From NCBI RefSeq assembly GCF_025028335.1, contig NZ_JAFEUW010000001.1, forward strand, positions 1,178,001 through 1,242,000: a DNA stretch of 64,000 nt, read 5' to 3'. Positions 6,206 through 35,381 of this stretch are shown piece by piece (the stretch's first letter is position 1; each line of letters starts with the position of its first letter). Position numbers and translations under genes: made by a program. The notes below the pieces were generated by a model that did not search any database, was not told the origin of the DNA, and saw nothing but the letters and a program-made list of their open reading frames with translations. This DNA comes from Brachybacterium sillae. Its GTDB lineage: Bacteria > Actinomycetota > Actinomycetes > Actinomycetales > Dermabacteraceae.

Positions 6206-7639
6206 TCAGGCACGCAGGTAGGCCCGCAGGGCCTCCCGCTGATCCCGGGGGGTGAACCCGGTGGCGCCCAGCTTCTCGAGGCTCAGCACAGAGCGCCGGG
6301 GCCGCGGGGCGACCTGTCCATCGCCCTCCCGCTTGTCCTGGGCGGCGTAGTAGTCGGCGGTGGCGACGGCGCCGACACGGCCGCGATCATGACCGTCGAG
6401 TTCGAAGACGTCCGCGGCGATCCCCGCCCAGGAGGTCGGCTCCCCGCTGTTGCTGAGGTTGTACACCCCGGGCTCGGGGCGGGTGCGCAGCAGGTGGTCG
6501 ATGCCGGCGGCGAGGTCGTCGGTGAAGGTGAGACGGCCGATCTGGTCATCCACGACCTGCGGGTCCACGCCCTTCGCGGCGAGGGCCTGCATGGTCCGCA
6601 CGAAGTTCTTCCCCTCGCCCACCACCCAGCTGGTGCGCACGATGTAATGCTGCGGGAGGGTCGCCACGAGGCGATCCCCGGCGGCCTTCGTCTGCCCGTA
6701 CACCCCGAGCGGCGTCAACGGTTCGTCCTCGGTGTGCTCCTGCTCGGTGCCGTCGAAGACATAGTCGCTGGAGACATGCACCAGGGTGGCACCGGAGCGC
6801 CGCGCGGCCTCGACCAGGCGCGCCACGCCGTCGACGTTGACCGCCCACGCCTGCCGACGCCCCTCAGGGGTCTCGGCGGCGTCGACCGCCGTGTACGCGG
6901 CGGCGTTGACGATGGTCGAGTATCGCGAGAGATCCAGGTCGGCGCCGGAGTGCGGGTCGCCGAGGTCCAGGCGGTCGCGGCCGACGAGGTCGACGTCGTC
7001 GCGGTCCTCCCACAGGGCGGCGAGGGCACGGCCCAGCTGACCGGTGGCACCGACGACGAGGGTGCGGCCCGAGGTGGTGGGGCGCATGGGGGTGACCTGG
7101 TCGAGCCGCGGATGCTGCCGGTCCTTCTCGGACAGCTCCGCGTCCTCCAGCGGGATCGGCCAGGGGATCGCCACGGTCTCATCGGCCAGGTTCAGGAAGG
7201 TGTACTGCGACTGCGCCTCGGCCGACCAGTGGTCGTTCACGAGGTACGTGTACGCGGCGGGAGCCTCCAGGGTCTGGAAGGCGTTGCCCACGCCCCGCGG
7301 CACGAAGATCGCGACATCGGGGCGGATCTCATGCCAGTAGACCGCGCCGAAGCTGTCGCCCTCACGCAGATCCACCCACGCCCCGAACACGGCGCCGGTG
7401 GCCACGGAGATGTACTTGTCCCACGGCTCGGCGTGGATCCCGCGGGTGACTCCCACCGCCTGGTTGAAGGAGATGTTGTTCTGCACGGGGCCGAAGTCCG
7501 GCAACCCGGCGGCGACCATCTTCTCCCGGTGCCAGTTCTCCTTGAACCAGCCCCGGTTGTCCCCCGAGACAGGGAGGTCGATGACCAGGAGTCCGGGGAT
7601 CGGGGTCTCGTGCACGGCGAGGGGGCGGGGATCGGACAC
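6206..7639 (-). CDS. Bifunctional dTDP-4-dehydrorhamnose 3,5-epimerase / reductase (RmlC-RmlD fusion)
   Basis: This 477-residue protein catalyses the last two steps to dTDP-L-rhamnose. Residues 1-185 are an RmlC cupin (SGDNRGWFKE, GVTRGIHAEPWDKY, VPRGVGNAFQ). From about 192 an RmlD short-chain reductase begins with GATGQLGRAL and continues with HVSSDYVFDG and the catalytic YGQTK (YxxxK). It has a GTG start after GGAAGGAA. It is last in the run rmlA-rmlB-rmlCD, 53 bases after rmlB. Fused epimerase/reductase proteins are known in Actinobacteria. The product feeds rhamnose-containing wall polysaccharide. Confidence 0.92.
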   Translation of the reverse strand: MSDPRPLAVHETPIPGLLVIDLPVSGDNRGWFKENWHREKMVAAGLPDFGPVQNNISFNQAVGVTRGIHAEPWDKYISVATGAVFGAWVDLREGDSFGAVYWHEIRPDVAIFVPRGVGNAFQTLEAPAAYTYLVNDHWSAEAQSQYTFLNLADETVAIPWPIPLEDAELSEKDRQHPRLDQVTPMRPTTSGRTLVVGATGQLGRALAALWEDRDDVDLVGRDRLDLGDPHSGADLDLSRYSTIVNAAAYTAVDAAETPEGRRQAWAVNVDGVARLVEAARRSGATLVHVSSDYVFDGTEQEHTEDEPLTPLGVYGQTKAAGDRLVATLPQHYIVRTSWVVGEGKNFVRTMQALAAKGVDPQVVDDQIGRLTFTDDLAAGIDHLLRTRPEPGVYNLSNSGEPTSWAGIAADVFELDGHDRGRVGAVATADYYAAQDKREGDGQVAPRPRRSVLSLEKLGATGFTPRDQREALRAYLRA

Positions 7640-7692: not shown

Positions 7693-8718
<1,026 letters not shown>

Positions 8719-8865: not shown

Positions 8866-9744
8866 TCAGCGCTCCGCGCGTTCCCGCTCCAGGGTGTCCA
8901 GCAGATACCGCCCGTACCCGGACTTCACCAGCGGCTCGGCGAGCTCGCGCAGCTCGTCGTCGCTCAGCCAGCCCATCCGCCAGGCGATCTCCTCGGGGGC
9001 GCCGAGCGACAGCCCCTGGCGCTTCTGCACGGTGCGGATGAAGTCACCGGCGGCCGCGAGATCGTCGAAGGTGCCGGTGTCGAGCCAGGCGGTGCCACGG
9101 GTGAGGACCTCGACGTGCAGACGGCCCTCGTCGAGGTAGGTGCGGTTGAGGTCGGTGATCTCCAGCTCCCCGCGGGCGGAGGGCTTCAGGGCCTTCGCCC
9201 GCTCGGAGACCGTGCCGTCGTAGAAGTACAGACCCGGCACGGCCAGGTTGGAGCGCGGTGCAGCCGGTTTCTCCTCCAGGGAGACGGCGCGGCCGTTGTC
9301 ATCCATCTCCACCACGCCGTAGGCGGTCGGGTCGGCCACCCAGTACCCGAAGACGGCAGCGCCGTCGACCTGTGCATACCGCCGCAACTGGGTGCCCATG
9401 CCCTGGCCGTAGAACAGGTTGTCGCCGAGCACCAGGGCGGCGTGGTCACCGCCGAGGAAGTCCTCCCCCAGGGTGAACGCCTGCGCCAGGCCGTCCGGGG
9501 ACGGCTGCACGGTGTAGGTCAGGGAGACGCCGAAACGGGAGCCGTCACCGAGTACCCGCTGGAAGGCCTCCGAATCGTGGGGAGTGGTGATGACCAGGAT
9601 GTCGCGGATCCCCGCGAGCATCAGGGTGCTCAGCGGGTAGTAGATCATCGGCTTGTCGTACACCGGCATCAGCTGCTTGGAGACGCCGATGGTGAGCGGA
9701 TGCAGACGGGAGCCGGTGCCACCGGCCAGGATGATGCCACGCAT
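8866..9744 (-). CDS. rmlA: Glucose-1-phosphate thymidylyltransferase
   Basis: This 292-residue nucleotidyltransferase joins dTTP and glucose-1-phosphate to give dTDP-glucose, the first step to dTDP-rhamnose. The N-terminal [18 protein letters not shown] is the nucleotide-binding loop, followed by [17 protein letters not shown]. Later motifs include VLGDNLFYG and SLEEKP. Length is normal. The gene starts 12 bases after the PRC-barrel gene on the same strand, so they may share a transcript. rmlB and the rmlCD fusion follow. Confidence 0.93.
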
Positions 9745-9756
9745 GGGGCCAGTATG

Positions 9757-10155
9757 TCAGGACGGCTCGGCGGGGCCCGCGGGCTCTGCCTGCGGCGCGA
9801 CATCCCGGGTGAAGGCGACGCGGGCCTCATCCAGGGCGGCCCGCGGCAGGTGCCCGTTCACCGGAGCCTCCGGGCCCCGGCGGATCCGCGCACGGGGCGC
9901 GGCCACGCGCAGGTGACCGTGCTCGTCCATCATCAGCGCCTCCGCCGGGATCAGCACCTGCCGGGGCCGCCACCATCCCATCCGCAGGGCGACCGCCTCC
10001 AGGCGTCCGTCGGCATCCGACAGGTACACGTCGTGGACGTGCCCGCTGCGTCGGCCCTCCTGGTCCAGCACATGCGCGGCCGAGAGCGCGAGCACCTCCG
10101 GGCGGGCGGCGGTGAGCCCGCGCCGGCGTGCGCGTCGCTGCTGCGTGGTCGGCAT
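9757..10155 (-). CDS. PRC-barrel domain protein
   Basis: This 132-residue protein has the pattern of a PRC-barrel: LSAAHVLDQEGRRSGHVHDVYL, then GRLEAVALRMGWWRPRQVLIPAEAL. PRC-barrels are small beta-barrels found in photosynthetic reaction centre H subunits, RimM and many actinobacterial proteins of unknown role. The start has aggggagg 7 bases upstream. It precedes rmlA by 12 bases and follows the Asn-synthetase/CofE fusion gene by 32 bases, so it may be cotranscribed with either. No specific function can be given. Confidence 0.62.
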   Translation of the reverse strand: MPTTQQRRARRRGLTAARPEVLALSAAHVLDQEGRRSGHVHDVYLSDADGRLEAVALRMGWWRPRQVLIPAEALMMDEHGHLRVAAPRARIRRGPEAPVNGHLPRAALDEARVAFTRDVAPQAEPAGPAEPS

Positions 10156-10187: not shown

Positions 10188-12616
10188 TCAGGGTCGCTCG
10201 AACACCACGGCCATCGGCGTCTGCTCACGCCCCTGGCCGAGGGGATTGTCGGCGAACTGACCCTCGTAGTGGGCACCGCTGAGCGGGGCCGCTTTGCCGA
10301 GGGTATTGCGTCCGATGTCGTTGGCGTCCATCACCACGGTGCCGGTGAAGGTGCGGGCCCAGCGTTCCGGCAGGGCCGCGCGGATCGCCTCGTTCAGCTG
10401 TTCGGCGACCCGGTCGGGGTCCTTCGGCGGGAGCTTCGCGGAGACGTTCGCCGGGTACACGGAGTACTCGGTGGGGCCGTCGATCGCCCGCACGTTCCCG
10501 CCGACGACCTGGTAGAACAGACCGCGGCGACGCACCAGCTTCCCGGCGGCGCCGGCGGCGGAGGCCAGCAGCACCCGCGGCAGGCCGGCCTCCTGGATCG
10601 CCAGGTGCATGGTGACCGGGTCCCCCAGGCCGATGCCGGCGGGAGTGCGCGAGACGAACCGCGACAGCTGCCGAGCCCACCAGGACGGCTTCACGTCCCA
10701 CACGAAGTAGGAGCGGCCCTGCATGATGGCGATGATCTTCTCGCTGATCGTGAGGTTCCAGGAGCGTCCCTCGGTGGCCTCGCGATGGTCCGCCGCGGTC
10801 GAGCCGTCCGCGGCGAGTGCCGCGTCGAGGTCCGCGAAGAACCCGGTGACGTACGGGACGACATCCTCGACGAGGCGGGAGTCGGCGGAGAACTTCGCGG
10901 TGCGCAGCGGGTAGCGGCGGGCGATGCGACCGCCCTCCCGGTCCGTCAACTCGAGGTCCAGCTGCTTGCCCTCGTTCGGAGTCAGCGGTTCCTTCGGCTC
11001 GGGCTCATGGCTGCGGCCGTGGTCGTCCTCCCCGTCCCAGTCGGTGATGCCGTCGGTGGTCTCGACGCCGCCATCCACGCCGGCGGCCGGCCCGGCGGCC
11101 TCCCGGGGATCGGCGTCGATCCAGGTGCGCATCCACAGTTCCAGCACGAACAGGCGCCAGAACACCTCGATGCCGGTGAGACGACGGGCGACGAGGCTGT
11201 CGAAGGCGTCCAGCACGTCGCGCTGCACCACCCACGGGCGACCGGCGAACGAAGCGGAGCGGAAGACCTGGTGCAACAGGCCCTTCAGGCGACCGGTCCA
11301 CTCCTCGGCGTCGATCGCCGCAGTCCGCTCGTAGCGGGCCGTGGCCAGTGCCGGATCGACCAGGGCCGCATAGGAGGCGAGACCGTCCTGACCGGCGGCG
11401 GTGCGGACGGCCGGATCGAGCAGCGGCATGCGCAGGTGCACCCGGAAACGGACGGCGCTGCGGGCGGCGGCGACGACCGCCCCGGTGTCGCGGTCCCGTC
11501 CGAGCTCCTCGGGACGGTGCCCGGTGGCGGCGGTGCCGGTGACGAACCGCGGGTCCAGCAGCGCATCGGCCTCGACGAGCATCCGCCGGGCCTGCCGCAC
11601 ACGGTGCGCGAGACCCGCGGCGCGGTCCGTCACCCGGCCGACGAGGGCATCACCGGAGCGTTCACGGCGGGGGCCGACCACTCCGGGCGACCCGGCCTGC
11701 AGACGGGAGGTGCCGACCAACCCGGCACCGATCGGCCCGGTGGCGTCGACCACCACCCCTTCGGGGGCGAGACGGGCAGCGGCGCGCACGGCGCAGTAGT
11801 GCGCGTAGACACCGAAGACCTCGAAGGGCTCGACCTGGCTGCGGATGAGGTCCGGCAGGTCCTTCTTGAACTGTTCCGTGGTCGGGCGCACGTCCTCCAG
11901 GTCCAGGCCGCCGCGCTGCACGAGGGTGGAGACGCGGGAACGACCGAGATCCTCCCGGGCGGCGTCGGCACTGCGGGTGGAGGCGGCACGGACGGACACG
12001 GCCCGGCGGGCGGCCACCCGACCGGCGAGAGCGGTGGAGGCGTCGTCCTCCGCCAGCAGCAGGACATCGGCCGGGCCGATGGCTGCGACGGCGTCGGTCA
12101 CGGCGTCTGCGAGGGCTGCGGGCGCGGCGGGGCGGGCCGAGGCCGCCCCCGACCCGGGCTGGTCATCCCCGCGTCGGCGCTGAAGGGTGCCGTCGGGCAG
12201 CACCCGGACCTCGTCGTGGGCGTCGAGCCGCTGGATGCCCTGGAAGAAGGTGAGGCGGCCGGTGGCGGTGTCGTCGCCGCGCAGGTACGCGAGCACGGTG
12301 CCATGGTGCGGCTGGGGGGCGATCCCGGCGTCGCGGCGGGCATGCACCAGACGCGCCAGGTCCGTCGCCCAGCGCACCACCGGCGCGGTGCCGCCGGCCG
12401 GGGCCGGGTCCACCGCGAGGTACAGCTGGGCCGCGGCGGGCGCGAGGCGGCGCAGCAGCACACTGCCGTCATCCTGTCGCTCGACCCCGACGCCGAGTCG
12501 TTCGGCGCGGTCACCCTCGAGCAGCTGCGCAGGACCGGAGGGCGCGAGGGTCACCTCCCCGCTGGCACCGTCGGTTCCGCCGATGCCGTACGGCTGCGGG
12601 AGCGGCCGGGCCGGGT

Positions 12617-12620
<4 letters not shown>
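10188..12620 (-). CDS. Asparagine-synthetase-like / F420 gamma-glutamyl-ligase-like fusion protein
   Basis: This 810-residue protein looks like two enzymes joined. The N-terminal half has asparagine-synthetase-like hallmarks: an FFQGIQRLDAHDEV stretch near 125-140, MPLLDPAVRTA in the middle and FWRLFVLELWMRTW near 490. However, the SGGLDS-type ATP-pyrophosphatase loop is replaced by LLLAEDDAS, so adenylation may be lost or altered. After an acidic linker, the C-terminal half (about 560-810) resembles the CofE family: YPLRTAKFS, ISEKIIAIMQGR, TGTVVMDANDIGRNTLG. CofE adds glutamate to F420-0, but other CofE homologues have other roles. The start overlaps the TetR stop (ATGA). No other F420 gene is visible. 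Reaction unknown. Confidence 0.72.
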
Positions 12621-15905
<3,285 letters not shown>

Positions 15906-34826: not shown

Positions 34827-35381
34827 ATGTGCCCTCCGGCTGCTCCGCAGGCCCCGTCCCCGGTCACCAGCAGGCGCATGAGCGCAATCCGACGTCGGGA
34901 CACCCGTCCCGAGCTGGCGTTGCGCCGGGCACTGCACCGGAAGGGTCTTCGGTGCTTCGTGGACCGGGCACCCCTGCGGGAGTTTCCTCGTCGCCGCGCT
35001 GACGTCGTCTTTCCACAGACCCGCATCGCGGTCTTCGTCGACGGCTGCTTCTGGCACGGCTGCCCGGAGCACACCCGCCCGTCCCGGGCGAACGCTCGGT
35101 GGTGGACAGCAAAGCTCCAAGGGAACGTGGCGCGCGATCGGGAGACCGATGCGCGGCTCGTGGACGCCGGGTGGTGGGGGGTCCGCATCTGGGAGCACGA
35201 GCCCGTCGAGGAGGCGGCCTGCGGAGTGAGCCAAGCCCTCATCAAGCAGGTTGTTCAGAACGGCGTGAGGACTGCGGGCAAGAAGGGCACCTCAGTTTTT
35301 ACACAGGGTAAAGGCGCGAACAGAATCCGCGTCATCGTCGACAACAAGACCGGCAACATTATCACCGTCACGAACGGGTGA
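34827..35381 (+). CDS. Very short patch repair (Vsr) endonuclease with a DUF4258-like C-terminal tail
   Basis: Residues 18-132 are a complete Vsr nuclease: MSAIRRRDTRPELALRRALH, then VFPQTRIAVFVDGCFWHGCPEH and GVRIWEHEP. Vsr nicks T:G mismatches formed by deamination at 5-methylcytosine sites. It normally ends there; here about 50 more residues follow (QALIKQVVQNGVRTAGKKGT and NRIRVIVDNKTGNIITV), less GC-rich and resembling the end of a DUF4258-type domain. No cytosine methyltransferase is in the window. The ATG at 34878 is an alternative start. The DUF2283 gene begins 3 bases after the stop. Confidence 0.78.
   Translation: MCPPAAPQAPSPVTSRRMSAIRRRDTRPELALRRALHRKGLRCFVDRAPLREFPRRRADVVFPQTRIAVFVDGCFWHGCPEHTRPSRANARWWTAKLQGNVARDRETDARLVDAGWWGVRIWEHEPVEEAACGVSQALIKQVVQNGVRTAGKKGTSVFTQGKGANRIRVIVDNKTGNIITVTNG

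Follow-up and report, generated by a model that had tools for sequence, protein, structure and literature searches.

The window, by which we mean the whole 64,000-nucleotide stretch of the Brachybacterium sillae genome analysed here, contains on its minus strand (10188..12620) a gene that joins an AsnB-like half to a CofE-like half in a single frame of 810 residues, beginning with ATG and free of internal stops. This frame had been singled out in the initial annotation and proves to be real: it is uninterrupted, the GC content of its codon positions (GC1/GC2/GC3 = 0.78/0.54/0.90) follows the pattern of minus-strand coding sequence, and both halves find matches. Its conserved portion is the CofE-like ligase domain (residues 536–810; 10191..11015, minus strand), which is supported by alignments A1 and A3, AlphaFold and Foldseek. 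The AsnB-like half (about residues 1–510; 11091..12620, minus strand) is degenerate, lacking both the N-terminal Cys and the PP-loop; the stretch AEDDAS (residues 190–195; 12036..12053, minus strand) lies in the region that holds the PP-loop SGGLDS in intact relatives.

Upstream on the same strand lie three genes recognised by Pfam: a TetR-family regulator (12617..13399), the aspartate-semialdehyde dehydrogenase gene asd (13396..14541) and the aspartokinase gene lysC (14538..15905). The ATGA overlaps claimed for this series exist between the fusion and the TetR gene and between the TetR gene and asd, but the asd/lysC junction is GTGA. Downstream, again on the minus strand, are a gene for a 132-aa protein without a Pfam match (9757..10155), an rmlA-like nucleotidyltransferase gene of the dTDP-rhamnose type (8866..9744; Pfam NTP_transferase, with the name rmlA given by eye) and, both assigned by eye from the sequence, an rmlB-like dehydratase gene (7693..8706) and an rmlC-rmlD-like fusion (6206..7639). 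Elsewhere in the window, a short plus-strand reading frame (34959..35381) resembles, by eye, a Vsr-type mismatch endonuclease.

The window protein has a single Pfam match up to E 1, F420_ligase (PF01996), which scores 19.5 bits with the full sequence and 21.6 bits with the isolated domain, both under the 25-bit cut-off; NCBIfam, TIGR01916 included, gives no match. Alignment A1 has 14 members, the window protein among them, and every one matches F420_ligase at E≤0.1 (best 6.2e-12). Against PDB sequences the A1 profile finds nothing up to E 1, and the wider A3 profile finds CofE at 4e-6. The AlphaFold model of the C-domain, made with 33 aligned C-domains, has a pLDDT of 93.2 and a pTM of 0.90, and its five Foldseek matches in the PDB at E≤0.001 are all CofE (2PHN, 2G9I, 7ULD), with E from 1e-6 to 3e-5, probability 1.00, TM 0.41–0.54 and rmsd 6.7–8.3. 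The half resembles the N-terminal domain of CofE/FbiB (PF01996, TIGR01916) in fold, likely in NTP-driven amide ligation and, by eye, in the order of its conserved blocks (an ID motif, LPxxDPD and a D-containing strand). It departs from CofE/FbiB in its profile scores, as even the standalone relatives with a TIGR01916 match, three in number, reach only 24–35 of 181 bits, although some relatives do pass PF01996. It also differs in its motifs, for the RFGASDIALGASG stretch of the FbiB-type ligase of the same genome has no counterpart in the CofE-like half, which carries a conserved DNPLGQG..TP tail in its place. Unlike CofE/FbiB, moreover, the family has no tie to F420, and in distant lineages its copies adjoin peptidoglycan genes.

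Could the fusion be the F420-0:gamma-glutamyl ligase of the cell? Membership in the CofE fold family speaks for this reading, which we nonetheless regard as extremely improbable and reject. The genome of the window (G000) already possesses a canonical CofE/FbiB-type F420 ligase (C1:662674-663270; L001, L053) that scores 151 bits against PF01996, and the F420 pathway is therefore probably present; the earlier remark that no other F420 gene is visible is correct for the window but not for the genome. When seven fusion-bearing genomes were searched with PF01996 at E≤0.001, no match was found in G684 (a Saccharibacteria record), G687 (an uncultured Micrococcaceae) or G688 (Actinomyces mediterranea). 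In G685 the single match, of 32.5 bits, coincides with the fusion fragment itself by position comparison with L096, and the remaining three genomes gave strong matches. The motif differences and sub-threshold scores described above also count against this reading.

The N-terminal half of the window protein is matched by neither Pfam nor NCBIfam up to E 1, but it is recognisable through its relatives, whose loop-bearing AsnB halves it matches in blastp with E down to 2.5e-24 (L039). The full-length AlphaFold model (pLDDT 76, pTM 0.68) matches TsnB9, beta-lactam synthetase, carbapenam synthetase, asparagine synthetases and CofE in a structure search, the best matches of the N-terminal half being TsnB9 (7YLZ) and beta-lactam synthetase (1JGT); one intact relative matches 7YLZ and 1CT9 at the sequence level. 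By both blastp and the full-length model the half is of the AsnB type, and since the structure matches comprise AsnB-type enzymes as well as CofE, both folds proposed at the outset were right. Its architecture is that of the AsnB-type amidotransferases (asparagine synthetase B, the LtsA/AsnB of DAP amidation, TsnB9), from which it differs in that the window protein has neither the N-terminal Cys nucleophile nor an SGGxDS PP-loop, and in that its family is fused to or adjoins a CofE-like partner. The reported loss of the SGGLDS loop is borne out, with AEDDAS in that region, although MAFFT places this stretch ambiguously against SGGLDS. The window protein and its G146 counterpart are 43% identical in the N-terminal half and 76% in the C-terminal half.

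A genome scan with the whole window protein returned no relatives, and the C-domain profile found at least 527 among named genomes, of which 80 were kept. The matches listed include Brachybacterium, Dermabacter, Helcobacillus, Actinomycetaceae, Intrasporangiaceae, Dermacoccaceae-type genera, Micrococcaceae, Catenulispora and Stackebrandtia, so the fusion is not a peculiarity of Dermabacteraceae. With the protein as query, homologues occur in 54 of 396 genomes of the order; they were also found in 18 of 296 genomes of the phylum, the window's own counted, and, among 286 genomes from the phylum to which G684 belongs, in 21, two of them by weak matches. A plasmid search gave no match.

Among the loci in hand we distinguish 137 C-domains, 96 of which are preceded by an N-terminal part of more than 300 aa; removal of L188, TPR-like by Pfam, leaves 95 AsnB-fused relatives. 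The PP-loop SGGxD[S/T] is kept in 77 of these and absent in 18, so that degeneracy, as seen in the window protein, is not inherent to the fusion. In a quick tree with many weak branches, the state of the loop switches at least 10 times among the 95, and fusion and standalone forms interchange two or more times when L188, L189 and fragments are set aside. The PP-loop appears, from these sequences, to have been lost repeatedly while the CofE-like half was conserved throughout. The window copy groups with those of B. phenoliresistens, G146 and G046 (Devriesea agamarum) with an SH-aLRT of 97, and this group is nested in a clade of 12 rows (100) that also holds Actinomycetaceae and Dermabacter; the remaining copies from Brachybacterium fall in a clade of their own (99). 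In family f19, which may be Brevibacteriaceae, the CofE-like half stands alone without the AsnB half. Two further CofE-like domains, L188:3413-4807 and L189:9161-10534, carry long N-terminal extensions of a non-AsnB kind, with TPR matches in L188.

Does another AsnB compensate for the decayed one? Among 18 genomes searched for Asn_synthase, no match was found in the window's genome, G146, G222 or the f19 genomes G083 and G205, and matches of only 20–28 bits in G323, G160 and G376; the MurT-bearing Brachybacterium genomes G118 and G211 reach only 26–30 bits. G046 is exceptional in having two strong AsnB matches, one of them in a frame without the CofE-like half. This genome carries, alongside a window-type fusion, a separate AsnB-like gene (L051; G046:C1:2374557-2375663) that is related to the N-terminal half of the fusion and has no CofE-like match. 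Judged from such sequence comparisons, the AsnB half is dispensable. Housekeeping asparagine synthesis is an unlikely role for it, because G118 and G211, which have MurT, and the window-type genomes G000, G146 and G323 all lack an Asn_synthase match above 30 bits.

The distribution of the CofE-like gene is best understood next to that of MurT-GatD, which is described as amidating the alpha-carboxyl of D-Glu2 of lipid II in several Gram-positives. A search of the same 396 order genomes for MurT_C (PF08353) gave 139 matches, 138 of them above the cut-off. The 54 genomes with the CofE-like gene and the 139 with MurT do not overlap, 19 genomes with both being expected (hypergeometric P 8e-12, a value that ignores phylogeny), and 203 have neither, so either not every genome performs this step or a different enzyme takes care of it. 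A survey across Dermabacteraceae finds the CofE-like gene in 35 of 47 genomes, MurT in nine, both in none and neither in three (the incomplete genomes G980 and G983, and G222, which is not incomplete). In this family the CofE-like gene is present in a single copy per genome, that of G981 being split into two adjoining pieces. No PF08353 match exists in the window's own genome. The switch occurs inside genera: there are five MurT genomes in Brachybacterium and one in Dermabacter, and in f19 the CofE-like gene and MurT divide genus g33 by 12 to 4 and genus g26 by 1 to 2. We consider these genus-level switches stronger evidence than the significance values, which ignore phylogeny.

Exclusivity is weaker at the scale of the phylum than in the order, as three of the 18 CofE-like genomes (G434, G502, G618) also have MurT, where 8.3 were expected. 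In the 49 named fusion genomes searched for MurT (50 handles picked from the 80 loci), there was one strong match, in Stackebrandtia albiflava (72 bits), and four weak ones of 23–28 bits, three of them above the cut-off. Replacement of MurT-GatD in genomes without MurT is thus supported by overlaps of 0/54 and 0/35 and by common slots, with the 3/18 of the phylum and G222 to the contrary. The two systems resemble each other in that they exclude one another within the order and use the same chromosomal slots; in sequence they belong to unrelated protein families, the fusion having neither Mur-ligase nor class I GATase domains.

In Brachybacterium the slot is HAD-[X]-(thyX)-dapA, downstream of dapB, and X is the fusion in 9/9 loci compared and murT-gatD in 3/3; in this comparison L052 has the fusion in two frames, and L071 has no separate HAD gene according to the gene caller. 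In the window's genome the dapB-dapA slot is empty, with the HAD-type gene directly adjoining thyX, and its copy of the fusion lies beside asd-lysC. A Brachybacterium locus with neither gene, L266 (G222:C69), likewise has an empty dapB-dapA slot. The linkage to lysC-asd emphasised in the initial annotation holds for all four loci of the window-type clade (the window, L033, L034 and L067), but the other nine Brachybacterium loci compared are all in the dapB-dapA slot. As the linkage is confined to one clade, a function read from the lysC-asd operon was set aside.

Similar exchanges are found outside Brachybacterium. In Dermabacter a NUDIX gene and cmk-der neighbour both the fusion and MurT, which are oppositely oriented. 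In f19 a sigma-70 gene precedes the standalone CofE-like gene (8/8 loci) as well as murT-gatD (3/3), overlapping by four bases in the MurT loci L273 and L274 and in the CofE-like loci L049 and L062, and separated by seven bases in the MurT locus L275. Alanine-racemase-type genes adjoin the CofE-like and MurT slots of this family at L049:11050-12830 and L273:10715-12453 (by Pfam for L049:11778-12827, the rest by eye). In family f6, taken to be Micrococcaceae, two MurT loci have both flanks in common with fusion loci and two have one; in f17, taken to be Intrasporangiaceae, two share both flanks (with additional genes between them in L278) and one shares a single flank, and two of the nine fusion loci (L059, L060) are located elsewhere. 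The CofE-like gene and murT-gatD are exchanged in common slots in four families; the MurT loci L251 and L252 lie outside these comparisons.

The exclusion of MurT might instead reflect indirect constraints of wall chemistry, or recombination at common slots, with the enzyme modifying some other envelope carboxylate such as a wall-polymer uronic acid, a bridge residue or a DAP carboxyl. The window gene is indeed flanked by dTDP-rhamnose-type and DAP-pathway genes, and AsnB enzymes are described as amidating DAP in Corynebacterium and Listeria (PMC8554201). We find this explanation improbable, given that the exchange with murT-gatD takes place at differing slots across the four families and that none of the 139 MurT-bearing order genomes carries the CofE-like gene anywhere.

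Some distant homologues also adjoin peptidoglycan genes. Among 17 distant Actinomycetota loci, several of whose matches are weak (1e-16 to 1e-29), MurJ is adjacent or one gene off in at least five (L187, L189, L190, L191 and L192, the last with an internal stop in its CofE-like gene). A separate intact AsnB gene adjoins the CofE-like gene in an ftsZ-sepF-divIVA cluster in at least one of the 17 (L178), and a MurT-GatD-like fusion adjoins it in at least one (L182). At this last locus (L182:7370-10524, in G502) the 725-aa MurT-GatD-like fusion is followed directly by the CofE-like gene, placing both systems in one genome. The 18 Patescibacteria loci include three with an adjacent AsnB gene (L232, L239, L240), one in which it is fused (L224) and two with mraZ-rsmH and a PBP gene next to the CofE-like gene (L225, L227).

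What, then, might the enzyme do? Distribution and synteny make it quite likely that the CofE-like enzyme works at the point where MurT-GatD does. As its counterparts in related bacteria stand in for murT-gatD, often in the very slot of that pair, the gene probably represents an unrecognised second way of capping cell-wall glutamate. The early suggestion of a ligase or amidase acting on a wall precursor gains support from the MurT exclusivity, the slot exchange and the adjacency of MurJ, MurT and dcw genes, although its original basis, the lysC-asd linkage, does not carry it. For the target carboxyl, the glycine donor and the role of the AsnB half we infer a more specific scheme, in which we place somewhat more belief than doubt: the CofE-like gene would be a stand-in for MurT-GatD that modifies the alpha-carboxyl of D-Glu2 by ligating glycine. 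The CofE-like half would join glycine to this carboxyl of the peptidoglycan precursor; an intact AsnB half would probably amidate the carboxyl newly gained by the product or supply ammonia to the reaction; and where this half has decayed, as in the window protein and others, the ligase step alone would remain. CofE itself is described as using GTP and an acyl phosphate intermediate to couple a carboxylate with the amine of L-glutamate (PMC10861534). No paper joining CofE with asparagine synthetase or MurT/GatD was found in the accessible portions of the open PMC literature, and PMC11915815 makes no mention of CofE or F420.

Glycine on D-Glu is a classical character of bacterial chemotaxonomy (Schleifer and Kandler). 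The type strain of I. calvum is described as having Gly on the alpha-carboxyl of D-Glu2 (PMC3035309); strain PheN6 carries a fusion with an intact loop (L089) and no MurT, the glycine chemistry being that of the type strain. The peptidoglycan of B. vulturis and B. avium is reported to include Gly (PMC6090031), and both genomes (G294 and G284) have the CofE-like gene and lack MurT, the AsnB-like and CofE-like parts of G284 lying in separate frames. For B. equifaecis only DAP, Ala and Glu are listed, without Gly (PMC10581053), and its genome (G118) has murT-gatD and no CofE-like gene. Contrary to the link between glycine and genotype, B. nesterenkovii is listed with Gly, and G222, putatively of this species, lacks both genes and has its slot empty. 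The Brachybacterium data come from TLC of hydrolysates and report the presence of Gly, not its position. The link fits in four of five species, weakly in view of the chemical data, as I. calvum, B. vulturis, B. avium and B. equifaecis agree with it and B. nesterenkovii, if G222 is of this species, does not.

If the product were plain D-isoglutamine, the enzyme would be a true functional equivalent of MurT-GatD, combining the acyl phosphate of the D-Glu alpha-carboxyl with ammonia, drawn from glutamine through intact AsnB halves and from free ammonium where these have decayed. The exclusivity and slot data fit this equally well, and a glutaminase-intact AsnB fused to or beside the ligase parallels GatD beside MurT. 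In mycobacteria, amidation of D-Glu is described as essential (PMC10484409), so that its loss without a substitute would be unlikely there. We nevertheless hold plain amidation to be rather unlikely. The AsnB half can decay without another AsnB being needed, as G000, G146, G323, G160, G376, G083 and G205 lack any Asn_synthase match above 30 bits (G046 being the exception), the nucleophile described for CofE is an amino acid, and the glycine data, so far as the sources go, suit ligation better.

Returning to glycine ligation, we tentatively extend it to the family as a whole, at slightly less than even confidence: CofE-fold ligases, often fused to AsnB, would be the enzymes by which Actinomycetota and Patescibacteria attach glycine, or perhaps glycinamide in some lineages, to the D-Glu2 alpha-carboxyl. 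They would provide a third way of masking that group, swapped with MurT-GatD at the same chromosomal position in at least four families. What the analysis shows directly is the homology and fold, the order-level exclusivity with MurT, the slot exchange and the position of distant homologues beside peptidoglycan genes.

No MurT match is found in 257 of the 396 order genomes, and a gene that replaces it in place would explain part of this gap. If the proposal is true, the family would supply a candidate source of the glycine found on D-Glu and a wall function for F420-ligase-like proteins, those of Patescibacteria included. Near neighbours within Brachybacterium that carry either the CofE-like gene or MurT form natural pairs for muropeptide comparison.
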